A DNA stretch of 64,000 nt from a bacterium (lineage in GTDB: Bacteria; SZUA-182; DTGQ01): NCBI GenBank assembly GCA_023512255.1, contig JAILZY010000010.1, positions 1-64,000 on the forward strand, read 5' to 3'. The notes under the pieces are model-generated. The model was not told the origin of the DNA and made no database searches. It saw nothing but the letters and a program-made list of their open reading frames with translations. Every line of letters begins with the position of its first letter. Position 1 is the stretch's first letter. A program made the translations under genes and the position numbers. Positions 23,267 to 55,929 of the stretch are shown piece after piece.

Positions 23267-26200
23267 TCAATGACGATTTGAACTCAATGATGAATAAAGT
23301 GATTTATAGAGCCAGTTTGCCCAAAGGTCGTTTGGAGTCCCTGATAATGAGAAATTTGAGAGCCCAGGATAAGAGTTTGACAAGTTGTACAGGCCGCTAT
23401 TAGCGTCATATAACCAGTTGGATAGCCAGTTTGATAGGTTGCTGTAAGGAGATAGGGAGCTAGTTGATGACCACAAGAAGCTGTACGATGGCCACGAGCT
23501 TAAGCTATACGATGGCCACGAGCTTAAGCTGTACGATGGCCACGAGCTCAAATCATACGAAGCTGGCCACCAGCTTGAGCTATAGGCTGTTCGCCAGTCT
23601 GCATCATACAACGACCACCAGTTTGAGCTATACCAAGGCCAGCTCAAGGCGGGGTAAATCGGCTGAGTGGTAGGAGTAGTAGGGGTAGAAGGAGTAGACG
23701 GAGTGGAAGGAGTAGACGGAGGAGAAGAGGGGCCGGCAGGAGCGGCCTGAGTTTTGAAAGAGCTGGTTCTAGCCGCACTCAGCCGATTGCCGGAAATATC
23801 TGTCGCTCCCTCATCAATCTTGATCTGATAAGTAGTGTTTGGGGCTAGCTTTGACTTTGGGGCCACAAAGGTAATCGAGGTCAGGTCCGGCGATAGCTTG
23901 ACTGTGAAGTTTGGATCATCCGGGCTGATGGTAACGTTAGCCAGCAAAGAGGCCCAATCCATCGGCTCACTGAAGGTAACAGTCAGCTCCTGTGATAAGC
24001 TGACCTCGGTGGCATTGGGATTGGGCGTAATATTGACCACGATCGGAGGCGTAATATCTAACCTGCTGACCCCGCTATCTGTGCCAAACCATAAGTTTCC
24101 ATAGGCATCCTGCTGAATGCACCTTATCTGATCAGTCTGTGAAGAGGATGGAGTTGTAAGATTAGGAAAGCTTCTCCAGAAATTCCAATCAGTGGTAGCC
24201 AAGACCCCAGCATCAGTAGCAAACCAGTACCGCTCGCCCGGATAGTTTTGGCCAGCTAGGGAATAGATCTCATTGACCGCGCCGTCCAGCGGGGCAGCTA
24301 TCTTCGACCATCGGCCATTTTGATATCGATACGCGCCTTCTCCGGTAGCTACCCAAAGGGTGTTTTCCACCGGGTCAAAGGTGAGCGAGTTAATGGTTAG
24401 CCCATAGGCGATAAAGGGGAAGAAAGATCTATCCTGGGTTGAGTTATAAATCAGTTTACCGGCTGCATTAAATTTATAGATATCCCCCCAGATGGTAGCC
24501 AACCAGATATTGCCTTTATCGTCCGGGGCCGCGGCCTTAACCCAATTATCGCTTAGACCTGAATTGATGTCGAACACAACTTGCCACTGCTGATCGTACA
24601 GCTTGAGGAGGCCATGATTTTGGGTGGCTACCCACACGCCACCGTTAGGATCAATCGAAAGATCATGAATCGGATCATCAGGCAGCCCGTTTTCTCCCCT
24701 GGGGAAGAACTTGACCACTGCCCCCTTGGCTGGATCAAACTTGACCACCCCGCTTCCGCCGCTACTGCTGCCGTCTTGTGGCTGAGTGCAGAGCCACAGA
24801 TACCCTTGCCGATCCACAGCCAGGCGGGTAATGAAATTACTGGGCAGGCCGTGTTGTACGGTATATGGGTGGCTCATCCAGTCGGTCCAAAAATCAGGCT
24901 CTTGTGAATTACCTTGAGTCTTGGGAGCATAGGTGAATAACCCAGCTCCCAGGGTGGCTATCCAGAGTCTGCCGCTATTGTCCAAGGCAAGATCAGATAC
25001 TGGCTTATTGATCTGAAAATGGGTCCAGCCCTGATTACATATCATGTAGCCGAAATTAGCCTCCAGGCTGTTTGGGGATGCTGCTTGGTCTTTAGCAGTT
25101 ATTTTAACGAAAATCCACTGATTGTTTTTAAAGGGAATAGCTGGAGTGTAGGAGATAGTGTATCCCTGCGCATCGGCAGCAGTAATGATTGCTTTGGCGG
25201 TTACATCAACTCCATTCACTATAAGTCGCAAGGAGCTTGGATCTACTCCTGTTTCAAAATCGCTGACCGTATAGGTAAAGGTAGCCTTGGCCGGGATACA
25301 GGATTGGTTAGGAGGGGTAGAGCTGGCTATGAATGGCTTGCAGGAGTCCTCAGTATAGAGGAAATAGCTGCGTTCTGTCCTATGGCCAGCCTGATCGCTG
25401 ACCTCAATCCTGATCGGGATAATGGTCGAGCACTCAAAAGGCGTCTTAGGTTGGTAGCTTAGGGTAAGCCCCTGGGGAGTGTCAGAAATGGTAGCTGCCT
25501 CGGTAACGTTTTGCCCATCGACGAAAAACTGGATAGAGGACCTGTCAAGTTCAGCGAAAAGAGCCTTGATATTCAAAGTAATTTTTGGGCTAGTCGGCAC
25601 ATTCACAGAATTAGGTGCTGGATTTATGGCCTCGATGATAATGGGCTTGAGAGCCTGGCTGTCTCCTCCAGCAGGTAAGGCTTCACCATTGGCCGCACTA
25701 CTGCCACCACCAGGGGGGGGGAGGACATTGCTGCCGCCGCTAGCCGAGCTATCGGATGAGGCGGGAGCACCACCACTAGCGCCACTTCCGCCAGCCGGAA
25801 GATCACCGGCTGGTGCGCCGCCGCCAGATCCTGGGCTGCCGCTATCAGAGCCTGTTATATTCATCTGGTAGACCTTGGGGATAAATTGGGCAGCCTGATT
25901 AAAAGAGATAGCCATTCCATTGCTCAGGGCATCTTTAGTATTATAGGAATACTGTCTGGCTATCTGATCGTGATACTTTAGGCCGACTGTGGCCCAAGCC
26001 CCACGGCTTGAGCGCGTGCTCCCCGTATCCACATCTTTATACTGGAAGACAATCTCGCCGCTTTCCTCATACAGGATGGCCTCGAAGGTAACGGTATCTG
26101 AGCTAATTTCGCCGCTGTAGTGGCGCATGGGAATCTCACGCCACTCGACAATCAGCCGGGCTGGTTTATTGGCCCTATCGACGAGGTAGCAGATGGTACC

Positions 26201-26939: not shown

Positions 26940-29210
26940 TTAGAATTGATCATGACAAGCCCGGCACATGTTACTGCCCGGTGCTTCCGAATAATTATCC
27001 TGAACGAGCAATTGGCCATGTTTGCCTTTCTGTCCTGGAGCGGGACGTGGCTCTCCGGTAATGGTTCCATCCCAGGCGGTTGCGGCTGCATGGACATTAT
27101 GGCAGGTCAGACACAGCACACCATCTGTAGCTGTATTGTTTCCAGCAGTAATCCCCAGCGGGGAGCCGCTCTTTCCGCCATAAAATTGTTTTGGAAATGC
27201 CGTGCAGGTATTGCGTCCATTGGGAACCTTATCAGCTCCAACCGGATGAGTCGTCCCCTGAGCCATTGGGTCAGGATTAGTTGCCGTGCAGTGGCATTGC
27301 TCGCAGTAGCCATTAGCCTCGTACGGGGAGGCCTTGTCATTTTCGCTCAACCGATACAAGTAAGGCGGTTTGGTATTGATATGGACATCATGGCAGGTGC
27401 CGCAGAAGATCTGTCCATCGACTGTGCCGTAATCATCCATGACTCCGCCTGCTGAACCAGGCTTGCCATCGGCTTTTAGGAATTTTGGAACACCAACACC
27501 TCCGGCGGAAATTATATTCTCGCGGGTATTGAAGCTGACCGGTTTGCAGGCAAAACGGTGACTTTGCCGACCGGTTGTATTCAGGAGAGAGCCGTTTTTC
27601 TCATAACTGCCGACAATATTAGAATTACCATGACAGCCGTAGCACATGGCTTCATAGCGGTCAAGAGGATCGGGTCTTAAGGCAATGTCTCCCTGGCTTC
27701 CCCAATTCAGTTCTTTGGCTGGAACCCTCATCAGGGCGTCAATATCAGCGCGCAGAGGAGACACAACCTTCATGTCTCTTGGATCATCCTTGTCATTGGA
27801 ATGGATAAAATGGCAGAACATACAGCCGCCGCATTTAACCACCTTTTCTCCTCTAGCAGATGTGGCCTTGAAGGTTCTGGTAACCCGGTTCTTCGGATCG
27901 GTTCTGGTTTTAAAATGCAGCCCGCCATTGGCTTCAAGCATTGCCCGGCTTTTCGGATGCTTAGGATCGTTATGGCAATATTCGCACAGGGCAGTATCAT
28001 CATCTTTAAAAGATGCGTAACGCAGGAAGCTCGGATTGCCCTCTATCTCAGAGGTATGGGCTCCGTGGCAAGAGGTGCAGCCGAAGATCTGCTGATCGAA
28101 AGAAGCAGAGGAACCATCTGCGTAGGAGCCGTCTAGTTTAAAAATAAGACCATTCCCCGGTAGTTTTCCTTCATGGCATCCAGAGACTCCGCAGGAGGTC
28201 TTAGCCCACCGCTGGCCCAGTGGGTGGTGAGCACGGTTTGCTTGCAATTTTGGAGCATTTGGCCAAGTAGTAGTTGACAGGTGGCAGGAGGTACACTTTT
28301 GTGATTCATAGATCACACTTGAAGCCCCGGCATTCCTTAATACTGTCTTGAATCCTGGGTCGGCTGTTCCAAAGGTGAAGACTCCCAGCGGTTCCAGCCT
28401 ATCGATGAATATCAAAGCATCATTTTCAGGATTTTGAGTATCATGATATCCATCATGGGGACGGTGGCAGGCTTCACACTGAGGATCGGTCGCTTCACCA
28501 GAGTGGATATGGACGAGGGGCCTACCATTAATGTCTTTGGCCTTGCTAGCTTTTGGGTGGCATTGGCGGCAGAATTGCCTTCGGTCATGAGTTTCTCCCG
28601 CACTGGCAGTTGTTGAATTCAGCCGCAGATAATCACCATGCCCTGATTCATCCTTGTTTGGCTGCTTGTGGGGATTGTGGCAGGAGCCGCAATAGAAACC
28701 CTCGGTTTTTGAGAAGGGAAAGCCGATAACCTCAGCCTCTCTGCTTCCATCTCCTTCGGTGGTGCTGATATAGCTGGTTCCTCCATCTGCATTGGGTTGA
28801 AATCTGGCCCCCATGACATGGTTGGCACTGCCTCCCAAGAAAACATTACCATTGGCATTATTCAGATCACTGAATCTGCCTCCATATTGGCCGGTTCCCT
28901 TCATCCGCAACCCAGATTCAATCTGGGGAAAATCTTTATTACCCTGATAGTGGCAGCTGGCACACAGGTCTTTGACCGTTGTCTGCTTCCCCTGGACTTC
29001 TCCTCGTGCCCAGATTCTGGCCCCTTTTCCAGCGTGAGGGATGTGGCAGTTGGCGCAAACCTGCTTGGTTGATCCTGAGACCTCACACAGGTGCCCGTTG
29101 TAGGGTGTTTGCTTTGATCCATCGACTGCGTAAGCTGTGGGGGAACAGCAGAACAAGATAAATAGACAAATTCCGAAAAAAGATAGTCTCGCTTTTAGTC
29201 TTTTATTCAT
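26940..29210 (-). CDS. Secreted multihaem c-type cytochrome, 15 haem motifs
   Basis: Predicted periplasmic or extracellular electron carrier of 756 residues. A signal peptide ends near SPTAYA. I count 14 CxxCH motifs plus one CX4CH (CGVSGCH). Several have the paired pattern CGSCHNPH seen in doubled-CXXCH cytochromes, and many extra His can serve as distal ligands. ATG 29210 is preferred over the longer frame because GAGAGGGG precedes it and the signal peptide starts there. Its partner NHL gene lies 244 bp upstream on the same strand. Low but real resemblance to the 14-haem protein nearby suggests duplication. No CX2CH-specific physiological substrate can be named. Confidence 0.95.
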   Translation of the reverse strand: MNKRLKARLSFFGICLFILFCCSPTAYAVDGSKQTPYNGHLCEVSGSTKQVCANCHIPHAGKGARIWARGEVQGKQTTVKDLCASCHYQGNKDFPQIESGLRMKGTGQYGGRFSDLNNANGNVFLGGSANHVMGARFQPNADGGTSYISTTEGDGSREAEVIGFPFSKTEGFYCGSCHNPHKQPNKDESGHGDYLRLNSTTASAGETHDRRQFCRQCHPKASKAKDINGRPLVHIHSGEATDPQCEACHRPHDGYHDTQNPENDALIFIDRLEPLGVFTFGTADPGFKTVLRNAGASSVIYESQKCTSCHLSTTTWPNAPKLQANRAHHPLGQRWAKTSCGVSGCHEGKLPGNGLIFKLDGSYADGSSASFDQQIFGCTSCHGAHTSEIEGNPSFLRYASFKDDDTALCEYCHNDPKHPKSRAMLEANGGLHFKTRTDPKNRVTRTFKATSARGEKVVKCGGCMFCHFIHSNDKDDPRDMKVVSPLRADIDALMRVPAKELNWGSQGDIALRPDPLDRYEAMCYGCHGNSNIVGSYEKNGSLLNTTGRQSHRFACKPVSFNTRENIISAGGVGVPKFLKADGKPGSAGGVMDDYGTVDGQIFCGTCHDVHINTKPPYLYRLSENDKASPYEANGYCEQCHCTATNPDPMAQGTTHPVGADKVPNGRNTCTAFPKQFYGGKSGSPLGITAGNNTATDGVLCLTCHNVHAAATAWDGTITGEPRPAPGQKGKHGQLLVQDNYSEAPGSNMCRACHDQF

Positions 29211-29389
29211 CTTTCGATCCCCTCTCTTCCATAAGCACTCTCTCCCAACCAAGGTTAAATATTGTTTATCACTCGAACCTAACATTAACAAACCACTTTA
29301 TCACTTTTAAAATCACTTTTAAAATTCTAAAAATTGATCGCTGGTTAAGTTATCATTATCCCACTCCTTCCCTTAATCCTTATAGAATT

Positions 29390-29415
29390 ATATAGCCGTT
29401 TAATATAGCCGTTTA
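29390..29415. repeat. Perfect 13-bp tandem duplication
   Basis: ATATAGCCGTTTA occurs twice in succession (29390-29402, 29403-29415) in the gap between the NHL gene and the 15-haem cytochrome gene. Confidence 0.8.
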
Positions 29416-29453
29416 TCAATCGCTACCTAAGCTAACGCTTATTTAAGGCTTAC

Positions 29454-30536
29454 TTATTTAAGATTTGTATCCTTAATGATATAAATCTGATTGACTTCCT
29501 GATCAGTCAGGTAAATGGTGTCATCACGGCCAATGAATATTCCAGTTGGCATCTTGAAATATATTTTGCCCTCTTTTCCATCCAGCCATTTGATTGCACC
29601 AATAAATTTTCCATCCGGCCCAAATACCTGGATACACTTCAGTAGAAGATCGGTTACATAAGCCCGGCCTCGACGGTCGACACCGACTCCTGTCAGCCGA
29701 GAGAACTGACCAGCTCTTTCCCCGCTTTCACCTCCAATCTGAAAAAGCTCAGCTCCATCCGGCTGAAAAACCCGAACCCGGGCGCACATACCTTCAGGAA
29801 CGAAGATCCGATTCTGATCATCAAAACAGACTATCCCAGGCGTACAAAACATACCCTGTTCCTTGCCTTTAAAATAGCGTAAAAATTTGCCATGCAAGTC
29901 ATAAATCCAGATATGGCCGTTTGAGGCATCACTGACATAAAGCTGATTACTCTTTTTATCAATGGCAATACAGCCGGGCGAGGCGTTTTGATATTTGTCA
30001 TCTGGGGATAGAGCTGATTTAGAGGAAAATTCTTCTACAAACTCACCTCGAGGGGTAAAAACCAGGATTTTTTCCCGCTTGACATCACAGATGTATACTT
30101 TGTCTTGGCTGTCTATGGCAATGCTGAACGGCTGGAGAAACTGCCCTGGCCCTTTTCCTTCCTTGCCGAATTTGGATAAGAATTTACCATCACGGCTATA
30201 AATCAATACCTCGGAGGGGATATTTTTTAGGACATAGAGATCTCCTTGGGAATTCTGGACCATATGAATTATAATGCCGCTGCTTTTGCCGCCCACCGCG
30301 GCAGATGGTCCGGAATCGCCCATGGTCCCGATCAGCTTAACCGTCCTGTTTTCAACCTCCTGCTCCACGGTCTGCTCATCGGTGCGGTCGCTTGCTTTTT
30401 GTTTAGTCGCTTGCTCGCCGGCTACAGCCTGCTCTTTGGCTTCAGCCTTGGCCAGCGTAGGCCGTGGAGCAAGCAAAAAGTGGAGCAGCAGACCACTCAG
30501 CAGGAAAATCCATAACATGGATGAAGATTTTTTCAT
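29454..30536 (-). CDS. Secreted NHL-repeat beta-propeller protein 1
   Basis: 360 residues: signal peptide (to about 30, ending PTLAKA), a charged Glu/Lys linker to about 65, then an NHL six-bladed propeller. Typical blade phrases are FLQPFSIAIDSQDKVYICDV and FSRLTGVGVDRRGRAYVTDL. It lies upstream of the 15-haem cytochrome in the same direction, as its homologue does for the 14-haem gene. A sigma54 site is about 190 bp upstream. Propellers of this type usually bind proteins or ligands; a scaffold or docking role for the cytochrome is inferred. Confidence 0.9.
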   Translation of the reverse strand: MKKSSSMLWIFLLSGLLLHFLLAPRPTLAKAEAKEQAVAGEQATKQKASDRTDEQTVEQEVENRTVKLIGTMGDSGPSAAVGGKSSGIIIHMVQNSQGDLYVLKNIPSEVLIYSRDGKFLSKFGKEGKGPGQFLQPFSIAIDSQDKVYICDVKREKILVFTPRGEFVEEFSSKSALSPDDKYQNASPGCIAIDKKSNQLYVSDASNGHIWIYDLHGKFLRYFKGKEQGMFCTPGIVCFDDQNRIFVPEGMCARVRVFQPDGAELFQIGGESGERAGQFSRLTGVGVDRRGRAYVTDLLLKCIQVFGPDGKFIGAIKWLDGKEGKIYFKMPTGIFIGRDDTIYLTDQEVNQIYIIKDTNLK

Positions 30537-30726
30537 AATTTTTATCCCCCTCGAGGTTTTTCCTTTAATCGTAAATCATAAATCATAAATTTCCATTAAT
30601 CGTAAAGATGGTTTAAGCCGATTTTTAGATTAGAAGCAGAGCGCCTTTTTGCCCTTGCTGTTTAACCATCACTATTTTTTTACACGTTTCTTTTTACACG
30701 AGCTTACACAGCATAACCTACAAAAA

Positions 30727-30742
30727 TGCAAAAGAAGTACCA
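30727..30742 (-). promoter_or_regulatory. Sigma54-type promoter of NHL gene 1
   Basis: The minus strand reads TGGTACTTCTTTTGCA, with correct 12-bp GG-GC spacing. A decayed duplicate (AAAGAAGTACCAT, 30754-30766) keeps the -24 half only. The 464-bp gap from 30537 to 31000 shows no gene. Confidence 0.7.
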
Positions 30743-31000
30743 TCCATATTTTTAAAGAAGTACCATACATCTTTTTATAGTGTTAAGGCAGATGTCATGT
30801 TAAGCCCTAGGAAGCCAATGATCATTTATTTACAAATGATATACTGTTACATTATAATACGAAAGAAAACCCAATATCAACATCCAGGTTGCGAGGTTGC
30901 CGACAAAAAGAAAAGAAAGGGGTTTGTGGCTATTAGACATATATCGGTCATTTCAACAATAGAATATTACCTGAAAATAGAAATTACCTGGCTGGGACTC

Positions 31001-33061
31001 CTAAAGCATCCCATAATGGCAATTAAAACATAATCCGCTGCCATGCTCATACACTTGGCCTTGAAAGCTTCCACCAATGGCATTATCAATAATTAAAAGT
31101 TTTCCGGCATTTAATCTTCCGCTTTGACTGATACCATCATGCCTAGTTACGGCTGAATGAACGCTGTGGCAGGACTGACAGGTGATATCTCCCTCCAGGG
31201 TATCATTTGATGTTTGCCCGCCAAACCCACCACTGAAGCCTGAGATAACATAGCCTTGAAAATTATCGCCAAATTGAACCGATTTTTGCTTCAGAGGCCT
31301 GTTGACCGGATGGGAGGATTCGCACTCGGCAGATGCGGGTTTGCTGGTATGGCAGGCGATGCACAGGGCAGAGCCAGAATAGTCCCGGGTTGCGTTCGGC
31401 TCTCGAAGGTAAGCTGTGCGCCGATCAATAAATTTCTCGGAGGAGCGGATAGGGGGCGAGTCCTGCCGGTGGACATTGTGGCAGCTTCCGCACCAGATTC
31501 TCCCTTTCTCGACTCCGTAATCATTCTGACACTTTTTTTCCCAACCATCGGAAACAACCTGTTTCCCATCCCCAAAAGGATTAATAATATTGATATTTTT
31601 GGAAGGCACTACATTAAACCGATGAGAGAAGTAATGGTCCTCTACATTATCGAGCAGCAGAGCATTTTTTTCATTGTCCGTATCTTTTGCTCCTACGATT
31701 TCGGCTCGTGAGTGGCAGCCGTAGCAGGCATCCTCGTAATCACGACTATCCTGATCCTGCAATTTGTCAGCCCACTGAAGATTTACTGGTGCAATCCGCA
31801 TGATCACATCCACCGAAGCAGAGGAATTTTCTTGGTTAGCTCGCTCATCATCTGTCTGATATAGAGCCGCAGGATCATTCGGTGATTTATGGATAGAGTG
31901 GCAGAATAGGCACTCATTTTCATTCTGGGGCGGCCCGATCGTGCGCCCGACCTGATAATGTCCGCGGCCTGGAGTGGATTCAAGATCACCGACCGCTTTA
32001 TCAGAATGGCAGGCAGCACAAAAGGCCCCGGGATGAGCCGGATCGTAGTTGCTGATAATTTGCGGGTTGAGATACTTATCATTAGTGCCCTGATGAGGAT
32101 CATGGCAGGATTTGCAATACAGCTCTCCCTGAGGGGAGAGTGGGCCAGATGCGGTCTTCTGATGTCCTTCGACTGTAGCCTCAGCTCCTTTCCCCATCGG
32201 GTGGTGCTCATACCGGACCAGGCAATCATCGCCATTCAGCGGAGCGTTTAGCGCCCCCTCACCCCCCCCTTGAGCTCGATGGCAGCCGTAGCAGCTAGCT
32301 GCATAAGAGTCAGCCACAGGATCGGAAAATTCGCTAACATTAGGGACTGCTCTGAAGGGGATGCTGCTTTCAGTCTTAATGATCTTTTTCCCTCGATTGG
32401 GGGAATAATGCGGAGTATGACAGTCAAAGCAGCCATCTTTGGTTCCATGCCCCTTGGCCTTACCCTGAACCAGGGGAGCGTGGCATTGGATACAAAATTC
32501 ATAATGCTTTTGTGAGGTAGTTTTGATTAAACCAGGCACTGACTCCCGCAGGTAATCGCCCCCCTCAAAGGGATCGGTATGAGGATTATGACAGCTTCCA
32601 CAATAAAATCCATCTCCTCCCTCCTTAGGCCGCAGGGGAAAGGTTTCACCCCACTCTTTGCGGGTTACCGCCGGACCATTAATTAGAGCATTGGCTCCCA
32701 TGGGATGATCATTACCTTCCTCAATGAATATATAATCCCTAGCTCCGAAAAGATGAGTACCATGACAGGTGCTGCACAGTCTTTTTGTTCCGGTAAACTC
32801 ACCACTTGCCGCCCTAGCCCACAGAAGGTCATCAGCGGCATGGTGAGGCAGATGACAGGCTCCGCACGGATCTTCCGGTACACACCAGGCATGAGGCCCA
32901 TTCAGCGCCCAGGCGAACTGAAAGCCGAAGACGACCAGCAGGAGGGAAATAATAAGGCCTATTATCCCTTTCGAAATACCTATACCGATTATCCACCGGA
33001 GAGCGATTCTCAGAAAACTACTTCGATACATCGAATACTGAAACAACTTTTGTCTCCGCAT
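31001..33061 (-). CDS. Secreted multihaem c-type cytochrome, 14 haem motifs
   Basis: 686 residues with an N-terminal hydrophobic export segment (about residues 25-52, ending FAWA) and 14 CxxCH motifs, several as CGSCHNPH or CQSCHSVH pairs. The last one, CFNCHYGML, ends the protein. The start lies inside the end of the upstream NHL gene: either the ATG at 33061 or the one at 33031, so the two are translationally coupled. Predicted role: electron transfer outside the cytoplasmic membrane, perhaps to extracellular acceptors. No outer-membrane porin gene is in the window, so a porin-cytochrome conduit is not shown. Confidence 0.95.
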   Translation of the reverse strand: MRRQKLFQYSMYRSSFLRIALRWIIGIGISKGIIGLIISLLLVVFGFQFAWALNGPHAWCVPEDPCGACHLPHHAADDLLWARAASGEFTGTKRLCSTCHGTHLFGARDYIFIEEGNDHPMGANALINGPAVTRKEWGETFPLRPKEGGDGFYCGSCHNPHTDPFEGGDYLRESVPGLIKTTSQKHYEFCIQCHAPLVQGKAKGHGTKDGCFDCHTPHYSPNRGKKIIKTESSIPFRAVPNVSEFSDPVADSYAASCYGCHRAQGGGEGALNAPLNGDDCLVRYEHHPMGKGAEATVEGHQKTASGPLSPQGELYCKSCHDPHQGTNDKYLNPQIISNYDPAHPGAFCAACHSDKAVGDLESTPGRGHYQVGRTIGPPQNENECLFCHSIHKSPNDPAALYQTDDERANQENSSASVDVIMRIAPVNLQWADKLQDQDSRDYEDACYGCHSRAEIVGAKDTDNEKNALLLDNVEDHYFSHRFNVVPSKNINIINPFGDGKQVVSDGWEKKCQNDYGVEKGRIWCGSCHNVHRQDSPPIRSSEKFIDRRTAYLREPNATRDYSGSALCIACHTSKPASAECESSHPVNRPLKQKSVQFGDNFQGYVISGFSGGFGGQTSNDTLEGDITCQSCHSVHSAVTRHDGISQSGRLNAGKLLIIDNAIGGSFQGQVYEHGSGLCFNCHYGML

Positions 33062-34028
33062 TAACTACATAGATTTTATTGTTTGTCCAGGCCAGACCGA
33101 GAGGCTGGCTGAACAGCCTGGGATTGCTCGACTGGCGCATAGAGTCAAGATATTCCCCCTTCTGGTTGAATACCTGGACCGAATTTGAGATAAAATCAGA
33201 AACATAAATCCGATCTCTGGCATCAATAGCCAGGCCATAGGGTCGAATAAATTCTCCCTCTTTGGTGCCGTTTTTGCCAAAAGCATAGCGAAATTTAAAA
33301 TCAGGACTAAAAGACTGGACCCTGAAATTACCCGCATCAACGACATAAATATTTCCTCGGCTATCGAAAGCAATATGAGCCGGACCGCTCAATCCTCCGT
33401 CTCCTCCGCCGGCAGTGCCGAAGGTGGCTTTTAATTCTCCAGAGAGTGTGTAGACTCCGATCTGGTGATTGCAGGCATCAGAGATATATAGCCGATTATC
33501 GAATGGATTGTAAGCGATAAAAGGGGCACAAAGATCGCGGCCTTTCTCTGGCTGGTGAAGGGGAAATTGCCCTTTAAGTTCGCCATCTGAGCTATAAATC
33601 AAAATCTTGTCTGTGGCCAGATCCGATACGTACACCCGATCCTGCCTGTCAATCGCTATCCCTGACGGCTCGCTCAGGTTTACTCCTTTGCCTTTTCCCT
33701 TGCCCTGCTTGGTCGGCTCTTGGCCAAAAGCAAACAGTAGCCGACCCGAAGGATCAAATACCCGAATCTCATTGGTCAGCGAGCAGACAACAAAGAGGCG
33801 ACCTTTGGAATCAAGGGCCAGCGCCGTGGGCTTGCCAGATGCTGGGCCTTGAAAACCAAGCTGAATCTGCCGCTCAAGCTGATAAAAGCTTTCTTTGCCG
33901 GCAGGTTGGCCAGCAGCCAGAGCTGAGCTGCTCAAGAGGAAGAGGGGAAAAAGCAGCGTCGCCAAGACAGATGCCAGAAAACCTTTTGGATTCAAAATCG
34001 GCTGGACAGTCATTATAATAGTCATCAT
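33018..34028 (-). CDS. Secreted NHL-repeat beta-propeller protein 2
   Basis: 336 residues: hydrophobic leader ending near SSSALAAG, then an NHL propeller (e.g. LSEPSGIAIDRQDRVYVSDL and FIRPYGLAIDARDRIYVSDF). Paralogue of the NHL protein at 29454-30536. Its end overlaps the 14-haem cytochrome gene by at least 14 bp, strong evidence that the two products are made and probably work together. A near-consensus sigma54 promoter lies about 155 bp upstream. The start could be a little downstream of 34028, where further Met codons occur. Confidence 0.9.
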   Translation of the reverse strand: MMTIIMTVQPILNPKGFLASVLATLLFPLFLLSSSALAAGQPAGKESFYQLERQIQLGFQGPASGKPTALALDSKGRLFVVCSLTNEIRVFDPSGRLLFAFGQEPTKQGKGKGKGVNLSEPSGIAIDRQDRVYVSDLATDKILIYSSDGELKGQFPLHQPEKGRDLCAPFIAYNPFDNRLYISDACNHQIGVYTLSGELKATFGTAGGGDGGLSGPAHIAFDSRGNIYVVDAGNFRVQSFSPDFKFRYAFGKNGTKEGEFIRPYGLAIDARDRIYVSDFISNSVQVFNQKGEYLDSMRQSSNPRLFSQPLGLAWTNNKIYVVNAETKVVSVFDVSK

Positions 34029-34418: not shown

Positions 34419-35972
34419 TTAGCTTGGCTCGTCAAGGCCATATCGTTTGATTTTCTTGTGTAAACCCTGCCTGGTAATCCCAAGCAAAGAGGCTGCTTTG
34501 TTCTTATTGCCCTGGGCTTCTTGAAGCGCTTTTCGGATAAGTCTAATTTCCAAAGCCTTAACCTGCTCAGGGAGTGAATAATCAACGGCATCTTTCTCAT
34601 GATCTTGCAGACTCTTGCTGAAATTTTGCAGCTCCCGTGAGCATTTGTCAATGGTAATTCGCTCCCCCTCAGGAGTTAGCGCAACCAGATGTTCTACCTC
34701 CCGCAGCAATTGGCGAACATTGCCCGGCCATGAATACTCCTCAAACAGCCGCAAGACTTCAGGCGCAAAGCCAGCTACCCTTTTTTTGAATCTACGGCTT
34801 ACTCGATCCAGAAAGGCTAAGGCCATAGTTACAATATCCTCCCGCCGCTCCCTGAGAGGCGGAATGTGGATCTCGACTGAAAACAGACGGAAGAAAAGAT
34901 CCTCCCTGAAACGCCCCAAGGCCACCTCCTGGCGCAGGTCCTTGTTGGTTGAGCTGATGATCCGCAGATTATAGCGCATTACCTTGTTGCTTCCCAGCCG
35001 ACAGCCTTCCCCCTCCTGAATGGCCCGCAAGAACTTAGGCTGAATAGCCAGAGGCATATCAGCTACCTCATCCAGAAACAGTGTTCCGCCGTCAGCCTCC
35101 TCAAATCGACCCTTGCGGCTGGTAACCGCACCGGTGAACGCCCCTTTTTCATAGCCAAAGAATTCGCTTTCCATAAGATTTTCGAGAATCGAGGCACAGT
35201 TTACAGCCACAAAGGGTTTGTCGCGGCGGTCACTGCCTTCATGGATCATTCGAGCAATAAGCTCCTTGCCGGTCCCGTGCTCGCCGTGGATGAAGACATT
35301 GACCGGAGTTTTGCTGATCATCCGCACCTCATCCATGATATTTCTCATAATCGGGCTTTCGACAATAAAGGGTATATCCCGAAAATAATTTCTTTCGAAC
35401 CACTCGACCTCGCAGTTTAACTGGCTAGAGATTTGCAGAATCTCTCGGCTTAAAAGGATGCCCTCGATAGAGGTTGCAAGGAAAGAGGCGATTTCCTGCA
35501 ATTGCTCCACATCTTCTGCGCTAAATCGCCCATCTCCCTTCTTGTTTAGTACCTCGATGGCTCCGATTACACCACGGCCAGTCAGACTTCTGATCGGAGC
35601 ACAGATTAGACTGTGGGTAACAAAGCCGGTCTTGGCATCAATTTCAGTATGGAAACCGTGTCGCTTGTCCAGGTCATGCTCTACAATGCATTGATCGGTA
35701 GAGATAACCTTGCCGACAACACTTTCATCTTTGGGAGGCTCAATCTTCATTCCTTCTAGACCAGTGCCGAACATCGACCAGATTGTCCCCTTTTGTGCAT
35801 CAGCCACAAAAACAGTGCAGCGTTCGGCATCCATAATTTTGGGCAGAATGGCTACGTAAAATTTCAGCAGGGCCTCATAATCGCCGACTGTCCAGGATTG
35901 GGTAACCTGCTCCAGACGAAATCTAAGGTTGGCAAGTCGCTGATGAATCATTTCAGGTTCATTGGCAGCCAC
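34419..35972 (-). CDS. Sigma54-dependent transcriptional activator (GAF-AAA+-Fis)
   Basis: Bacterial enhancer-binding protein of 517 residues. The N-terminal GAF domain (about 20-175) senses a small molecule or redox state. The AAA+ domain (about 210-445) has Walker A GEHGTGKE, the sigma54-contact loop GAFTGA, Walker B GGTLFLDE and the arginine-finger region [21 protein letters not shown] Fis-type HTH ends the protein ([20 protein letters not shown]). It opens RNA polymerase-sigma54 promoters. Four candidate -24/-12 sites in the surrounding 14 kb make it the obvious local regulator. Its ligand is unknown. Confidence 0.96.
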
Positions 35973-36011
35973 TCTTGTTCCTCCACCTTTGTGTAAATAA
36001 TGTTTACTATT

Positions 36012-36046
36012 GTAACCTGGTTGACATATTATAACCTGGTTGACAT
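36012..36046. repeat. 15-bp direct repeat upstream of the activator gene
   Basis: TAACCTGGTTGACAT at 36012-36026 and again at 36032-36046. It may be a duplicated operator, or one more of the short intergenic duplications common here. The 36050-36388 stretch shows no gene. Confidence 0.65.
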
Positions 36047-36388: not shown

Positions 36389-36404
36389 TGGCATGTGGTT
36401 TGCA
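36389..36404 (+). promoter_or_regulatory. Sigma54-type promoter facing the small membrane protein and giant protein
   Basis: TGGCATGTGGTTTGCA, with GG and GC 12 bp apart, matches the consensus. The predicted start is near 36415, leaving a leader of about 90 nt before the ATG at 36505. Confidence 0.78.
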
Positions 36405-36504: not shown

Positions 36505-36630
36505 ATGGCAAGCTCATTAATTAATATGGCAGGTATTATTTCCGCAGAGCAGGTTATTTTCTTGGTAATGATGATCAGCCTTTCCTTTATCCTAGTTAAA
36601 CGAAGAAAATTCCCCGTACTGATCAAGTAG
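36505..36630 (+). CDS. 41-residue single-span membrane protein
   Basis: Begins MASSLINMAGIIS after the strong ribosome site GAAGGAGGA. Residues about 10-33 form one hydrophobic helix, followed by KRRK. It is the first gene behind a sigma54 promoter and lies 340 bp before the giant Cys-rich protein. The open frame reaches 36421 from a TTG, but that is too close to the expected transcript start. No family is recognised. It could be an anchor or accessory subunit of the surface system. Confidence 0.65.
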   Translation: MASSLINMAGIISAEQVIFLVMMISLSFILVKRRKFPVLIK

Positions 36631-36828: not shown

Positions 36829-36973
36829 TTTTAAGAGAAGATCTTCTGGCGAAGGAGGTGAGCTTATAGAGGGGAGAGAGAGTAAAAATTTTTCATAGTA
36901 GTAGCAAGAGGTTAGGTTTGTGAGGTCAAAGAGCAAAGAATTTTTTTCAGATCAGAAAGGAGTGCTAAGAATC

Positions 36974-39900
36974 ATGTCTAAGGTAAAAGACAACTGGTGG
37001 GCCAAGTTAGTAAGCTCATCCTGTCTTGTGCTCTTTACCATAATAGCCCTTAGTGTTGGGTGTATGGGGATTTGGGTTAGCAAGACAGAGGCAGGAGGGG
37101 TAAACCTTTCGCTGAGTGGACAGGCGATTTATCCTCAGCCCGTGGATCAGGAAGTGCCGGAAATTTACGGGACCAAGGTCGTCTGGATGCAGCAGGGGAA
37201 TGATTATTATTACAAAGTATTCCTTGGCGATCTTGAGACCGGCACCAGCAGGCAGCTTGGGAGCAGCCCGGCTGCGGAAAAGTATCCGGCCATCTGGGAG
37301 AATAAGGTTATCTGGATGGATTATCGAAGCATCATGGATGATCCAACAGTAGAAAACAAATATGCATACATTTTCAAATACTATGATATGTATGGATATG
37401 ACCTGGAGAAAAATCAGGAATTTCCCATTTGTACCAATCCAGAATGGCAGGGATATGGAGATATCCAGAAGGATCGGGTTGTGTATGCTGATATGCGTAC
37501 CGGCAGCCCGGATATCTTCCTCTATGACCTGAGAAGCAGTCAGGAATACGCCATATGTATTCATCCCGCCTGGCAGGGAAATCCGGTCATTTATGATAAT
37601 TATGTCATCTGGATGGACGAGCGCTCAGGCAATTATGATATCTACGGCCTTGATCTAGCGACCGGTAAGGAATTTCCCATTTGCACCGCGGCTGATAACC
37701 AGGCTTATCCAGCTATCAGCGGCACAAAAGTGGTCTGGCAAGACAAAAGAAGTGGCAACGACGATATCTACCTCTATGATCTGGCCACAAAACAGGAAAT
37801 CGCTATCTGTACCCATCCAGGAAAGCAGCAGGTGCCTGATATTTGCGGCAATATCATTGTCTGGCAGGATGACCGTAATGGGAATTGGGACATCTATGGT
37901 TATGATCTGACTACCTATCAGGAATTTCAGATTACTAACCAGAGCGGCGATGAGACCTTCCCTGCCATATCTGGTGATCGGATCGTCTGGGTGGATTCAA
38001 GGAGCGGCCACAAAAATATTTATGCGGCTACTTTGCCGTCTGGCTTTGCTCCACAAGCCAATAATCAGGTCAGAAATCGGGAGTCAATCACTGCTGCTAG
38101 CTCACTGGGTGACTCTATCACGGCCATGTCATTTGCTGCTAGCTCACTGGCTAGCTCTATCGCCACCACGATTGCTCCGAATATCGAGATCTTAATACCC
38201 GAATTAATACCTGAAATCACCATACCCGCGATCACCTCTCCCATCATCGAAGTGCCAAAAACCGGCCCCTCAATTATAGGCTACGAAAATAGCGGTTGTA
38301 AAAAAGAGATTACCTCTACCACCATCCGCGCTCCTGAGGAAGAGAAATTTACCTATAAGTATCAAGACAATATCCTTTATCTTTTTCATGAGAACGCCTC
38401 TTACAATTGCTGTATTGAGGAAATCGCCATCACTATGGAGGTGGTAGGAAATATCATCAATATTTATGAAGATGAAAGGCTTGAGGGAGGCGGCTGTCGA
38501 TGTCTCTGCACCTATGATATAACCACTAAGATCGGCTGTCTTGAGCCTGGCACCTATGAGGTGAAATTCTTCAACAAGCAAACCGGCAAATTGCTCGGCG
38601 TGATCAAAGAGGTGGTTATTCCCCCGATTCCCTGTCTTCTTTCTGCCGCCGCACCGGTACAAAAATGCTGTCCACTTCCCTGCACCGATCCCATAAACCG
38701 CTGCTGTCCGTATGCCTCTGCTGTGCCAGAGCAAAGATGTGTGGTCTGTCCGGTGCCTTGGTGGCCATGTCCATGCAGCTATTTCGATGATATGGAGCAA
38801 GATACTTGGACATTCAGCCGAGGGATCAGCTCTTCTTCGTCCATCTCTACGCCGCTGCCACCTCCCCCAATTCAAGAGATTGATTATTCAACTGCCCAAT
38901 ACGTTTCACCGAAAAGATCAATCTGGGCCTATGTAGCCAGCTATCTTGAGACCGCGACCGATGCCAGTATTACTGGAGCAGGATACCGCACCCTTGGGGA
39001 AGGAGCAGAGCTTGCTACCGCTTCCAGCACCTCAGCATCCCTAGCGGCAGCAGCCAATGCCAGGGTAAGTGCTTCTCGGTCGTTTGAGCTTTGCGGCTGT
39101 GAGAATCTCAAGCTGAAGCTTTCTTACCAGATCCGCTACTCCATAAGCAAAATTAATCAATATCTCTATCGCCGCGTCGCGGTTGAGGTGATGGCTTATG
39201 ATGCTGCTGGCAATCAGATGGGCAAGCGCACCTATGTCCTGTTTAGGAATCCTATCCAGGTATTGAGTCAGGAAGATATTGATATTGTGCTCCCTGCTCA
39301 GTCTGCATGGCAGACCCTGGCAAGATCCCTCCAAAAAGATATACCGATCAAATGGTGTGAGGCGAGAAAACTTCAGGTAATTTTAAAAGCCGAAGGATAT
39401 TTCCCTGCTGGTCAGGGTGACTTTGTAGAAACATTCTGGGATGATCTGGCCATTGAGGGGCAAAACTGTAATATCATCCTGCCGTGCTGTCCGCTGGCTC
39501 AGGCTGAGGTTGGGGCGGCAGATGCCCTGTGGTGTCGGCCCTGTCCTGTGGCTACGACGACAGCAGCCAGCCAGGCTCTGTGGTGCTGGCCCTGCCCGGT
39601 GGCTTCTGTTGATGCGGCAAGTGCAGATGCTCTGTGGTGTCGGCCATGTCCCTATGAGATTCATATGCCAGATGGGACGATTAGGCGTTGCTGTCCTGTG
39701 GCTACGACGACAGCAGCCAACCAGGCTCTGTGGTGCTGGCCCTGCCCGATAGCGACTGGTGTTGAGGTCAATGTTCAGAGCTGGTGTTGTCCGCTGGCTA
39801 AGGCCGAGGTAGATACCCAGGTTTTGTGGTGTCGGCCCTGTCCTGTGGCCACTCAGCTTGATAATAACCTGATTCGCTGGTGCTGTCCGCTGGCCAAGGC

Positions 39901-42900
39901 TGAGGTGGATAGTCAGTCTTTGTGGTGCTGGCCCTGTCCGTATGTAGTGGAAAAGGATGGTCAGCTTACCCGCTGGTGTTGTCCTGTGGCTCAAAATGTA
40001 GACACGCAACTTTGGTGCAGGCCATGTCCTTATCCCAAGGCTACTGATAAGGAGCTTAATATATACTGCTGTCCTGTGGCTACGGCGACGGCGGCTGGCC
40101 AGGCAATGTGGTGTCGGCCTTGTCCTTTGGCTTCAGATGTAGCAGATGAGGCACTCAAGCTTTGGTGCTGTCCGCTGGCTCAGGCTGAGGTTGGGGCGGC
40201 AGATGCCCTGTGGTGTCGGCCATGCCCTGTGGCTACGACGACGGCAGCCGGCCAGGCTCTGTGGTGCTGGCCCTGCCCGGTGGCTTCTGTTGATGCGGCA
40301 AGCGCAGATGCTCTGTGGTGTCGGCCATGTCCGGTTCCGATAACTCCGCTGCCTGACAATTGCCTAATTGGAACGGTTAAAGAAATTCAACATCATGTCT
40401 CGGTCGGACGATCTGATCTAAAGGTAGTGGATGAATCGGGAAATATTAGGGAGATATCTGTACCGCTTACCCAGGCCGAAAATCTCAAGGTTGGCGATAA
40501 GGTTAAAGTTTGCATTGAGACGGATAAAAATGGCGAGATTATTTCAATCACCATTGAAAAGTACGATCCTAACGCACAGGTAGTGCCTCCAGCTCAGATT
40601 TGCTGTCCGCTGGCTCAGGCTGAGGTTGGGGCGGCAGATGCTCTGTGGTGTCGGCCATGCCCGATAGCTTCTGTTGATGCGGCGAGCGCAGATGCCCTGT
40701 GGTGTCGGCCATGCCCTGTGGCTACGACGACGGCAGCCGGCCAGGCTCTGTGGTGCTGGCCTTGCCCGATAGCTTCTGTTGATGCGGCGAGTGCAGATGC
40801 CCTGTGGTGTCGGCCATGTCCCTATGAGATTCATATGCCAGATGGGACGATTAGGCGCTGCTGCCCTGTGGCTACGGCGACGGCAGCCAACCAGGCTCTG
40901 TGGTGCCGGCCTTGTCCTGTGGCTTATGTTGATGCGGCGAGCGCAGATGCCCTGTGGTGTCGGCCCTGTCCTGTGGCTACGACGACGGCAGATGGCCAGG
41001 CCCTGTGGTGTCGGCCCTGTCCTGTGGCCACTCAGCTTGATAATAACCTGATTCGCTGGTGCTGTCCGCTGGCCAAGGCTGAGGTGGATAGTCAGTCTTT
41101 GTGGTGCTGGCCCTGTCCGTATGTAGTGGAAAAGGATGGTCAGCTTACCCGCTGGTGTTGTCCTGTGGCTCAAAATGTAGACACGCAACTTTGGTGCAGG
41201 CCATGTCCTTATCCCAAGGCTACTGATAAGGAGCTTAATATATACTGCTGTCCTGTGGCTACGGCGACGGCGGCTGGCCAGGCAATGTGGTGTCGGCCTT
41301 GTCCTTTGGCTTCAGATGTAGCAGATGAGGCACTCAAGCTTTGGTGCTGTCCGCTGGCTCAGGCTGAGGTTGGGGCGGCAGATGCTCTGTGGTGTCGGCC
41401 CTGTCCTGTGGCTACGACGACGGCAGCCGGCCAGGCTCTGTGGTGCTGGCCCTGCCCGATAGCTTCTGTTGATGCGGCAAGTACAGATGCCCTGTGGTGT
41501 CCGCCCTGCCCGGTGGCTACGACTACGGCAGCCGGCCAGGCTCTGTGGTGTCGGCCCTGCCCGGTGGCTTCTGTTGATGCGGCGAGCGCAGATGCCCTGT
41601 GGTGTCGGCCCTGCCCTGTGGCTACGACGACGGCAGCCGGCCAGGCTCTGTGGTGCCAGCCAGGAGTAGTTACCGAATGTTTAGAGGAAACCTCAGGAGC
41701 CTTGGACATTGAAGGCGCTCAGGCAGATGTGGGTGATGAGGTCAAGATCAAGATTCGGATTCAGAATGCGCCCGGTGTGGTATCTTCCTTCGGCTTTGAG
41801 GTTATCTACAGGTCGGATATTTTAGAGTATCAAGGCTTTGAGCGCGGAAATCTCGTACTTTCCTTCCCCATGATTGATGTTAGCCCAAGCGGCCCAGACA
41901 GGCTCAAGGTGGGAGGATTATCAGCGAATCCTATACCGCAGGGAGCAAGTGGTTCGGTTGTGGTGCTAAAATTCAAGGTCATAGGTGGTGTGAAAGATGA
42001 ATGTTATCCCTTGAGTCTGGAAAATCTGGTAGATGATCTAGTCAAATTCTCCAAAACTGGCGGCTGTCTATGCATCAAGGATACTGTACCACCTCAGATT
42101 ACCTGCCCGGGAGATAGGGTTATCGGCCAGATAAATAGCGATGGTACGCCTGCTGACGATCCTGAGGTAGTTGCCTTCCTCGCTGAGGCCAAAGCATGGG
42201 ATGCAGTTGATGGTGAGGTTGCGGTTTCAGCCACCTTCCAATTTGATCAGACCAGTGGAGTTACCAGCACTAGTGAGCCTGTCCCTGGAGCTGAAATAAT
42301 TATAGATGCAGACGATCAAGCCAAGATATTTTCTGGCAATCCTCTTATCCTTCCTCCTGGCCAGACCACAGTAATCTTTACCGCTAGAGACAAAGCTGGC
42401 AACAGCTCTTCCTGCACAGCTACGATCACCATTCAGCCAATGGTATGCGAGGAGGATGAGTCCGGGCAGCTCGATATTAAAGGCACGGAAGGCAGGATAG
42501 GAGAGGAAGTGAAGATTCCGATTCGGATTCAGAATGCGCCCGGTGCCATCTCTGCTCTTGGCTTTGAGGTAAGCTACAAACCCTCTGTCCTTGAGTATGT
42601 TGGGTTTGAGCGAGGAAGCCTGGCGGCCTCTTTCTCTGTCTTCGATGTCAACCCAATTGCCTCTGGCAGGCTCATTGTAGGTGGATACTCCACCCGAGGT
42701 ATCCCGCAGGGAGCAAGCGGCGATCTGCTTATCCTGAAGTTTAAGGTTAAGGATGGTATGGAAGGTGGATGCTATCCCTTGAAGCTGGATGGGCTGACGG
42801 ATGATGTGGTTAACTTTACAGCCAGCCCGGGTTGCTTCTGTATCAAGAGCTGCAACGGCGATCAAAATGGAGATGGAGTTATTACTCCTGCTGATGCGCT

Positions 42901-43099
42901 CATAGTGTTCAAGTGTTACCTTGGATCAGGACCTTGCGGCGATTGCGCTGATGTTGATGGCAACGGCAGTGTTACTCCGGCTGATGCCCTGTGTCTGTTC
43001 AAGAAATACCTGGGTCAGCCTTCTTGTCTGGATAACCTTATTAAGCTTAATGCTCAAAATAAGGGAACCTTTGCCGTAAGTGGAAAATCAGACGCCTAA
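36974..43099 (+). CDS. Giant secreted protein: TolB-like propeller, WCxPC/CCP arrays, two cohesin-like domains, dockerin
   Basis: 2041 residues from ATG 36974 (AGAAAGGAG upstream; a GTG at 36920 is also open). Signal segment to about 38. TolB-like propeller about 45-355 (repeated VWMDERSGNYDIYGLDL-type blades), an Ig-like segment about 430-555, a first Cys-rich patch and a carbohydrate-binding-like beta domain about 605-830. Array 1 spans 836-1124 with 11 WCxPCP and 7 CCP motifs; an OB-like insert follows to about 1205; array 2 spans 1209-1563 with 15 WCxPCP and 6 CCP. Then cohesin-like domain 1 (about 1573-1700), a HYR/Ig-like domain, cohesin-like domain 2 (1826-1959) and a dockerin with two DxNxDG-type calcium loops (1961-2017). 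WCxPC resembles the thioredoxin active site, but no thioredoxin fold is seen. Function unknown; a surface scaffold is inferred. Confidence 0.9.
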   Translation: MSKVKDNWWAKLVSSSCLVLFTIIALSVGCMGIWVSKTEAGGVNLSLSGQAIYPQPVDQEVPEIYGTKVVWMQQGNDYYYKVFLGDLETGTSRQLGSSPAAEKYPAIWENKVIWMDYRSIMDDPTVENKYAYIFKYYDMYGYDLEKNQEFPICTNPEWQGYGDIQKDRVVYADMRTGSPDIFLYDLRSSQEYAICIHPAWQGNPVIYDNYVIWMDERSGNYDIYGLDLATGKEFPICTAADNQAYPAISGTKVVWQDKRSGNDDIYLYDLATKQEIAICTHPGKQQVPDICGNIIVWQDDRNGNWDIYGYDLTTYQEFQITNQSGDETFPAISGDRIVWVDSRSGHKNIYAATLPSGFAPQANNQVRNRESITAASSLGDSITAMSFAASSLASSIATTIAPNIEILIPELIPEITIPAITSPIIEVPKTGPSIIGYENSGCKKEITSTTIRAPEEEKFTYKYQDNILYLFHENASYNCCIEEIAITMEVVGNIINIYEDERLEGGGCRCLCTYDITTKIGCLEPGTYEVKFFNKQTGKLLGVIKEVVIPPIPCLLSAAAPVQKCCPLPCTDPINRCCPYASAVPEQRCVVCPVPWWPCPCSYFDDMEQDTWTFSRGISSSSSISTPLPPPPIQEIDYSTAQYVSPKRSIWAYVASYLETATDASITGAGYRTLGEGAELATASSTSASLAAAANARVSASRSFELCGCENLKLKLSYQIRYSISKINQYLYRRVAVEVMAYDAAGNQMGKRTYVLFRNPIQVLSQEDIDIVLPAQSAWQTLARSLQKDIPIKWCEARKLQVILKAEGYFPAGQGDFVETFWDDLAIEGQNCNIILPCCPLAQAEVGAADALWCRPCPVATTTAASQALWCWPCPVASVDAASADALWCRPCPYEIHMPDGTIRRCCPVATTTAANQALWCWPCPIATGVEVNVQSWCCPLAKAEVDTQVLWCRPCPVATQLDNNLIRWCCPLAKAEVDSQSLWCWPCPYVVEKDGQLTRWCCPVAQNVDTQLWCRPCPYPKATDKELNIYCCPVATATAAGQAMWCRPCPLASDVADEALKLWCCPLAQAEVGAADALWCRPCPVATTTAAGQALWCWPCPVASVDAASADALWCRPCPVPITPLPDNCLIGTVKEIQHHVSVGRSDLKVVDESGNIREISVPLTQAENLKVGDKVKVCIETDKNGEIISITIEKYDPNAQVVPPAQICCPLAQAEVGAADALWCRPCPIASVDAASADALWCRPCPVATTTAAGQALWCWPCPIASVDAASADALWCRPCPYEIHMPDGTIRRCCPVATATAANQALWCRPCPVAYVDAASADALWCRPCPVATTTADGQALWCRPCPVATQLDNNLIRWCCPLAKAEVDSQSLWCWPCPYVVEKDGQLTRWCCPVAQNVDTQLWCRPCPYPKATDKELNIYCCPVATATAAGQAMWCRPCPLASDVADEALKLWCCPLAQAEVGAADALWCRPCPVATTTAAGQALWCWPCPIASVDAASTDALWCPPCPVATTTAAGQALWCRPCPVASVDAASADALWCRPCPVATTTAAGQALWCQPGVVTECLEETSGALDIEGAQADVGDEVKIKIRIQNAPGVVSSFGFEVIYRSDILEYQGFERGNLVLSFPMIDVSPSGPDRLKVGGLSANPIPQGASGSVVVLKFKVIGGVKDECYPLSLENLVDDLVKFSKTGGCLCIKDTVPPQITCPGDRVIGQINSDGTPADDPEVVAFLAEAKAWDAVDGEVAVSATFQFDQTSGVTSTSEPVPGAEIIIDADDQAKIFSGNPLILPPGQTTVIFTARDKAGNSSSCTATITIQPMVCEEDESGQLDIKGTEGRIGEEVKIPIRIQNAPGAISALGFEVSYKPSVLEYVGFERGSLAASFSVFDVNPIASGRLIVGGYSTRGIPQGASGDLLILKFKVKDGMEGGCYPLKLDGLTDDVVNFTASPGCFCIKSCNGDQNGDGVITPADALIVFKCYLGSGPCGDCADVDGNGSVTPADALCLFKKYLGQPSCLDNLIKLNAQNKGTFAVSGKSDA
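39483..40345 (+). repeat. Coding repeat array 1 (16-18-residue units)
   Basis: About 17 units of 48-54 bp, each encoding WC(R/W)PCP or CCP followed by a short Ala/Val/Thr/Asp stretch such as VATTTAAGQAL or VASVDAASADAL. The units are so alike at DNA level that recent unequal recombination or gene conversion is likely. Confidence 0.93.
40600..41661 (+). repeat. Coding repeat array 2
   Basis: About 21 units of the same type as array 1, separated from it by a unique OB-like segment (40346-40596). The last unit is degenerate (WCQPG). The block 41004-41384 reads by eye as identical to 39825-40205 in array 1, an offset of 1179 bp. Confidence 0.93.
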
Positions 43100-55383: not shown

Positions 55384-55929
55384 TCACCGGTCCGACTTAA
55401 TTTTTTGTTTGCTCAATTCTACGAGCATTTGCATGATGGTATCAAGTCTTTGGTTTACTTGTCCAATCTGAGTATCGATCTTCTGATTTAGTTGTCCAAT
55501 CTGGGTATCGATTTTCTGGTTTAATTGTCCAATCTGAGTATCGATCTTCTGGTTTAGTTGTCCAATCTGAGTATCGATTTTCTGTTCAAGAGCATCTACT
55601 TTTTGATCTACCCTATCAATCTTTTGGTTTACTTGCCCTATGTAAGTATCAATCTTTTGGTTTACTTGTTCTATCTGAGTTTCAACTTTCTGCTCAAGAG
55701 CATCTACTTTTTGATCTATTCTCTGGTTTATCTGATCTACTCTCTGATTTATCTGGCTGATTTCTTGCCTGACTTGTCCAATTTGAGTATTGAGATATCG
55801 AAAGTCGGCCTCTTGCTTGTTTTTGAGCTCTGCTATATCCCTTTTAATTTCTGCCGTCCGCTCCTCTATGGCCTCATAGATTATTTCCAGCGATATCTTC
55901 TTGATTATCCTGTTAGCAAGCTCTTTCAT
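55384..55929 (-). CDS. Coiled-coil protein with 11-residue repeats
   Basis: About 181 residues from ATG 55929, two bases after the upstream stop, indicating coupling. Nearly all helical: a lead-in with KKISLEIIYEAIEERTAEIK, then hendecad-like repeats of the type IDTQIGQLNQK (four almost identical copies, DNA period 33 bp, roughly 55460-55590) plus related VDALEQK and QINQRVD units. No enzyme motif. Likely a filament-forming or bridging coiled coil, partner of the small HTH-membrane protein encoded just upstream. Confidence 0.8.
   Translation of the reverse strand: MKELANRIIKKISLEIIYEAIEERTAEIKRDIAELKNKQEADFRYLNTQIGQVRQEISQINQRVDQINQRIDQKVDALEQKVETQIEQVNQKIDTYIGQVNQKIDRVDQKVDALEQKIDTQIGQLNQKIDTQIGQLNQKIDTQIGQLNQKIDTQIGQVNQRLDTIMQMLVELSKQKIKSDR

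Follow-up and report, generated by a model that had tools for sequence, protein, structure and literature searches.

Why would an uncultured anaerobic bacterium export, as this one appears to do, a protein with 125 cysteines, 78 of them set in tandem pairs? The question is raised by a large gene in the 64,000-nucleotide stretch of contig JAILZY010000010.1 (GenBank assembly GCA_023512255.1) that was analysed here and is called the window throughout. The original prediction, made from this stretch alone, described a secreted protein with 26 WCxPC and 13 CCP motifs in two arrays and about 78 cysteines, and a recount of the forward frame reproduced these figures exactly. The 26 WCxPC motifs comprised 18 WCRPC, seven WCWPC and one WCPPC; together with the 13 CCP motifs (15 in the entire protein) they make up 39 units with 78 cysteines, against 81 cysteines in residues 853-1583. 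Shuffling of the array protein gave an expectation of 0.014 WCxPC motifs on average. Judged from the sequences, the cysteine-pair repeat is real, conserved and lineage-restricted, and its most likely role, to which we would give about an even chance, is that of a stalk within an exported protein of scaffold type.

A cysteine-pair repeat in one long reading frame

The reading frame of the arrays is certain, because they form the middle third of one long open reading frame (ORF) with recognisable domains on either side. The order at the C-terminus is cohesin-HYR-cohesin-dockerin (cohesin E 6.4e-21 and dockerin E 1.1e-6 in a domain library search), both cohesin and dockerin being found likewise in a same-genus relative (G001), and the domains flanking the arrays also hold conserved cysteines. 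The mechanically delimited ORF spans 36920-43099 (+ strand, 2059 codons) from a GTG at 36920; the ATG at 36974 has AGAAAGGAG just before it and is conserved as a start in G001. The N-terminus was judged by eye to be signal-like, in agreement with the secretion originally proposed, and by the same judgement the protein of about 2041 aa is exported. Two ORFs that run antisense to the array (39383-40009 and 40544-41188) were set aside as shadows of the repeat. The original account did not include the propeller, cohesins, dockerin, orthologues or absence of DsbB and VKOR that are described in this work.

Distribution and evolution of the array

The array was found in three of the 386 genomes searched, namely the window's own genome, where the gene is present in one copy, G001 and a genome from another family of the same order (G004; contig JAFGSM010000075.1, isolate Zod_Metabat.896). 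Two further genera in the family of the window's genome and four further genomes of the class were without it. The G001 orthologue is full-length and syntenic (2280 aa) and possesses 33 CxPC and 31 CCP motifs and 171 cysteines. The number of units is 39 in the window, about 60 in G001 and at least 18 in G004, where the array is a fragment at a contig edge. The G004 array continues into a Cu-binding_MopE motif (E 1.9e-12), after which a tail rich in Gly, Ile, Tyr and Phe stands where the cohesins would be. This tail (protein at L015 1250-1740) is built of Gly/Ile/Tyr-Pro-Phe repeats (GGISYPFGGI), which replace both the cohesin and the dockerin.

Unit order was the same in all three carriers, and stretches of about 150 residues were 72% and 59% identical. 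The cysteine columns were invariant (16 of 16 in all six comparisons), with two to seven synonymous differences in the cysteine codons of each comparison. The ratio of non-synonymous to synonymous substitution rates (dN/dS) was 0.20 between two paralogous blocks of G001, for which dS was unsaturated, and 0.07-0.15 between species, values that are rough as dS was saturated. By these comparisons the array units evolve under purifying selection. Their copy number grows through the duplication of blocks of DNA: arrays 1 and 2 of the window share about 92% DNA identity over 832 bases, and the G001 array contains 891-base blocks that are 99.4% identical.

Organization of the units

Each unit has 15-18 residues and ends in [W/Y]-C-(xP)-C-P, so that WCxPC and CCP are two forms of one unit. 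Column counts gave the consensus P-[VLIYF]-[AP]-x-x-phi-[D or V]-x-x-[LI]-x-x-[WY]-C-C-P, and the CxPC form is this CC-form consensus with two residues (x-P, mostly R-P) added between the cysteines. A period of 16-18 residues had been predicted; its range proved slightly wider. In the window the predicted alternation of WCxPC and CCP is incomplete, up to five CxPC units in a row taking its place; in G001 and G004 it is almost strict and yields a 32-residue repeat. Since the two forms differ by two residues and the window's runs replace alternation, the building block looks like the single unit rather than the CxPC/CC pair of forms.

The gap from the last cysteine of one pair to the first cysteine of the next was 13 or 11 residues nearly throughout G001 and G004. 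Among 59 short gaps in G001, 45 were of 13 residues and 11 of 11 residues, and 13 of the 17 gaps in G004 were of 13 residues. Gap lengths thus differ mostly by two residues, as would be expected if the strands of a hairpin lengthened on both sides.

Searches for related families

No reliable match for the repeat was obtained in Pfam, NCBIfam, PHROGs or PDB, which accords with the original remark that no described family with this pattern is known. No hit emerged from profile or sequence searches of PDB (best E 0.47), viral contigs and phages contained no match, and a literature search of incomplete coverage returned no relevant description of a repeat of this kind. On sequence grounds the repeat family is apparently new, matching nothing described.

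Likeness to a known cysteine-rich family, which would have counted against the original prediction, was marginal at best. Array 2 alone scored 25.3 bits with Ephrin_rec_like (PF07699; cut-off 23.1), a cut-off not reached by array 1, the full-length protein, G001 or G004. Two of four spacer-shuffled controls, in which C, P and W were held fixed, reached 20.0 and 21.2 bits; most of the score therefore reflects the Cys-Pro grid, and membership of the family was not accepted. The array shares with Ephrin_rec_like repeats a tandem C-x2-C-P grid, about 13 residues between pairs and, probably, an extracellular setting, but differs in having Trp ahead of the cysteine pair and in its CC forms. Ephrin_rec_like repeats also have Gly-x-aromatic after CP, whereas the array columns after C are P-[VLIYF]-[AP], with no conserved Gly at that place. 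The likeness in spacing is a real lead for a disulfide model, not a sign of membership. A zinc ribbon (PF02150) was rejected at 20.1 bits in G004 and 14.1 in G001 against a cut-off of 25.2, and matches to DUF2290, Cas9_b_hairpin and PHROG families were dismissed as weak or below cut-off. A match to a Paenibacillus plasmid (27% identity, E 6e-3) sits within a tandem DNA repeat that carries no annotation, and was taken as a chance translation.

The array shares with the thioredoxin active site only the letters of WCxPC, a motif that in the array returns at intervals of 15-18 residues and trades places with CCP. The absence of a thioredoxin fold, noted originally, was confirmed in that no thioredoxin domain was matched in Pfam or NCBIfam around the 26 closely spaced WCxPC motifs. 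Choline-binding, MORN and RHS/YD repeats are likewise short tandem units, of one beta-hairpin each, as the array units may be; they are not known to have paired cysteines, and their Pfam families were not matched by the array. Variant-specific surface proteins of Giardia also hold many CxxC motifs, but their CxxC spacing is irregular and they carry a membrane anchor. Metallothioneins are small intracellular cysteine-rich proteins, unlike the modular array protein with its signal-like N-terminus and about 2041 aa.

In its domains the protein fits cohesin/dockerin scaffold proteins, having cohesins and a type I dockerin, and partner binding is predicted on that basis. The cohesin/dockerin set of the genome recalls those of anaerobic methanotrophic (ANME) archaea, anaerobes with multihaem cytochromes, whose noncellulosomal cohesin/dockerin surface proteins are large and exported; a cysteine-pair array is not mentioned for them in the available part of that account (PMC9012536).

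Redox background and probable habitat of one carrier

In all nine genomes of the class, searches whose positive controls worked detected neither DsbB nor VKOR. The window's genome yielded a single DsbA-type match, a partial one with the motif CPFA, in which the second cysteine is missing. The G004 isolate is probably from an anoxic sulfidic spring, as the Zod_Metabat series of bin names is that of Zodletone, a spring with anoxic, sulfide-saturated sediment at its source (PMC8248873). The lack of both enzymes together with this habitat makes uniform disulfides doubtful; it is no proof of reduced cysteines, but renders a uniform disulfide rod less obvious. Obligate anaerobes are reported to tend to keep cysteine out of exported proteins (PMC12453122), so 125 cysteines in one exported protein need a reason. 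Despite such avoidance, exported proteins with 125 and 171 cysteines appear to be kept under purifying selection in two species, and this in a class that lacks the two usual enzymes regenerating disulfide formation.

Nature and role of the array

The arrays may be a length-variable structural stalk in the exported scaffold-type protein, which would bind partners through its two cohesins and its dockerin. Each unit of 15-18 residues (P-phi-A-x-x-phi-D-x-x-[I/L]-x-x-W-C-(xP)-C-P) would form a short hairpin or knuckle, as suggested by the spacing, a D-G/D-x turn and the placement of hydrophobic residues. Cysteine pairs at the junctions would clip neighbouring units into a stiff rod whose length could be altered by unit duplication. 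The clip may be a metal-thiolate, with Zn or Fe held by the four cysteines of two adjacent junctions. The choice between metal-thiolate and disulfide is close, the former being slightly more likely in view of the absence of both DsbB and VKOR from the class and the probable sulfidic-spring origin of one carrier. We infer the hairpin fold, the stalk role, the nature of the clip and the surface location alike. A metal-binding or disulfide-locked stalk, both among the original suggestions, hence stands as the best type of explanation, with its chemistry as a proposal that is unproven.

Several points weigh against a metal-clipped stalk. It is unusual for a single metal to be chelated by CC pairs, and the spacing of the Cys-Pro grid matches a eukaryotic extracellular family that is disulfide-bonded. 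Some obligate anaerobes form disulfides without DsbB or VKOR (PMC12453122). The window contains 13 gaps of 14 residues, in three unit types, which weakens the argument from steps of two. AlphaFold2 gave no confident model for windows of 128 and 97 residues (predicted local distance difference test scores of 37.9 and 41.3, from shallow phased alignments of 11 and 8 rows and with a program that models no metals), and both disorder of the array and the beta-solenoid originally suggested are compatible with this outcome.

The alternative to be taken most seriously is a disulfide-locked rod, in which each short hairpin would be shut by a bond between the last cysteine of a pair and the first cysteine of the pair after it, as in cysteine-rich stalks of the TNFR/Eph type, the oxidants proposed being DsbA-like proteins, polysulfide or low-molecular-weight disulfides. 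It accords with the exactly two cysteines per unit, the nearly constant 11/13 spacing of the pairs, the score of the array 2 Cys-Pro grid above the Ephrin_rec_like cut-off (25.3 vs 23.1 bits) and the conserved cysteines of the flanking domains. However, the Pfam match is largely reproduced by shuffled spacers and is missing in array 1, G001 and the full-length protein, and neither the failure to find DsbB and VKOR in nine genomes nor the likely sulfidic habitat of one carrier favours it, so that such a rod is possible but doubtful. An extracellular trap that holds Fe, Zn, Ni, Cu or As outside the cell, with a capacity set by the number of units, would make use of the 78 to about 120 array cysteines and explain the varying unit number (39, about 60 and at least 18), and both the Cu-binding_MopE motif fused to the G004 fragment (E 1.9e-12) and the weak zinc-ribbon resemblance (20.1 bits, cut-off 25.2) point that way. 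Yet no genes for metal transport or metal resistance were noticed next to the array gene, any metal site in the MopE-type motif is putative, and D, L and W residues and unit order are kept as well, beyond the needs of a simple trap, which we consider improbable.

The original prediction also offered a dithiol/disulfide redox stalk. On this reading CxPC/CC dithiols would switch to disulfides and back, passing on or storing electrons close to the multihaem cytochromes. Despite the resemblance of WCxPC to thioredoxin active sites and the conserved synteny with two cytochromes of 14-15 haem motifs, this idea fared badly: CxPC and CC interchange, library searches gave no thioredoxin domain or family match, the cytochromes are on the other strand and their link to the array is not visible on the G004 contig. 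We regard it as very improbable. Just as hard to credit is a low-complexity expansion without a folded role, retained as a flexible linker only; recent DNA duplication (blocks 99.4% and about 92% identical) and the low AlphaFold2 confidence would suit it, but purifying selection, invariant cysteines with synonymous codon changes and a unit order kept between families do not.

A wider form of the metal-thiolate stalk is a new repeat fold, a long extracellular rod in which metal-thiolate sites follow one another, roughly one to each 32-residue repeat, and which would be the anaerobes' substitute for disulfide-braced stalks, possibly working with the adjacent multihaem cytochromes; at this scope the proposal is rather unlikely. 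Folding of the array protein outside the cell would be a direct test of whether metal-thiolate bracing replaces disulfides in anaerobes, and the short regular repeat might provide a designable modular rod.

Gene layout and genomic context

Table 1. Features of the array gene and its surroundings (positions in the window)
Feature	Position	Strand	Remarks
Two cytochromes, each adjoining an NHL propeller protein	26940-34028	-	14-15 haem motifs; syntenic in G001
GAF-AAA-Fis sigma54 activator	34419-35972	-	Divergent from array gene; syntenic in G001
Sigma54-type promoter	36389-36404	+	TGGCATGTGGTTTGCA; G001 counterpart TGGCATGCGGGTTGCA
41-codon ORF, small membrane-type peptide	36505-36630	+	MASSLINMAGIISAEQVIFLVMMISLSFILVKRRKFPVLIK; conserved in G001
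Whole array gene	36974-43099	+	Likely ATG start (MSKVKDNWW...); 2041 aa; 57% identity to G001 orthologue
N-terminal beta-propeller (TIGR04275 / PD40 repeats)	37100-38090 (limits approximate)	+	TIGR04275 E 2.5e-81, 7 stretches
Cysteine-containing domain (NSGC..NCC..GCRCLC)	38333-38686	+	Array-free paralogues elsewhere in genomes
FDDMEQDTW... WDDLAI domain	38813-39478	+	No database match
Repeat array 1	39476-40336	+	11 WCxPC and 7 CCP units
Non-repeat 91-residue domain separating arrays	40331-40603	+	Inter-array counterpart in G001
Repeat array 2	40592-41665	+	15 WCxPC and 6 CCP units
Cohesin domain 1	41699-42004	+	Cohesin match
HYR domain, C-terminal part	42350-42433	+	Domain match
Cohesin domain 2	42467-42793	+	Cohesin match
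Type I dockerin	42857-43003	+	Dockerin match

The sigma54-type promoter of the original prediction was recovered and is conserved in G001 (Table 1), with the qualification that it is separated from the large gene by the conserved 41-codon ORF. The peptide of this ORF has one hydrophobic segment and a basic end, and the ORF is possibly the first gene of the array-gene transcript. A direct repeat, TATTATAACCTGGTTGACA, is found at 36008-36046, upstream of the divergent sigma54 activator; its portion GTTGACATCTCACC is conserved in G001 and is a possible activator site.

Past the activator, both species have NHL proteins, two multihaem cytochromes (14-15 haem motifs each) and a propeller/immunoglobulin (Ig) protein, and on the 3' side of the array gene there are a response regulator and a sulfatase/TPR protein. 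The cytochromes had been placed next to the array gene. Two multihaem cytochromes are indeed present in a neighbourhood conserved in the second species, but on the opposite strand and about 4-8 kb off, beyond the activator and NHL proteins. The cytochrome/NHL group is a candidate extracellular electron transfer cluster on the basis of its gene content. The propeller/Ig protein beside the cytochromes ends in a repetitive tail rich in Trp, Ser and Tyr (SSWPSYSLSSWPSYSL...; window 23267-23600, - strand, and L058 10700-11109), the Trp-rich character of which is retained in G001 despite diverged sequence.

The window's genome contains 19 dockerins and 21 cohesin matches, the two domains often sharing a C-terminus, and cohesin-dockerin C-termini are possibly a general surface-assembly cassette of the organism. 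Many large ORFs have a cohesin followed directly by a C-terminal dockerin (G000 contigs C38, C97, C122, C133, C9, C167 and others). Elsewhere in the window, a 212-aa ORF (55384-55755, - strand) has a coiled-coil-type tandem repeat (QLNQKIDTQIG) in 33-base units.

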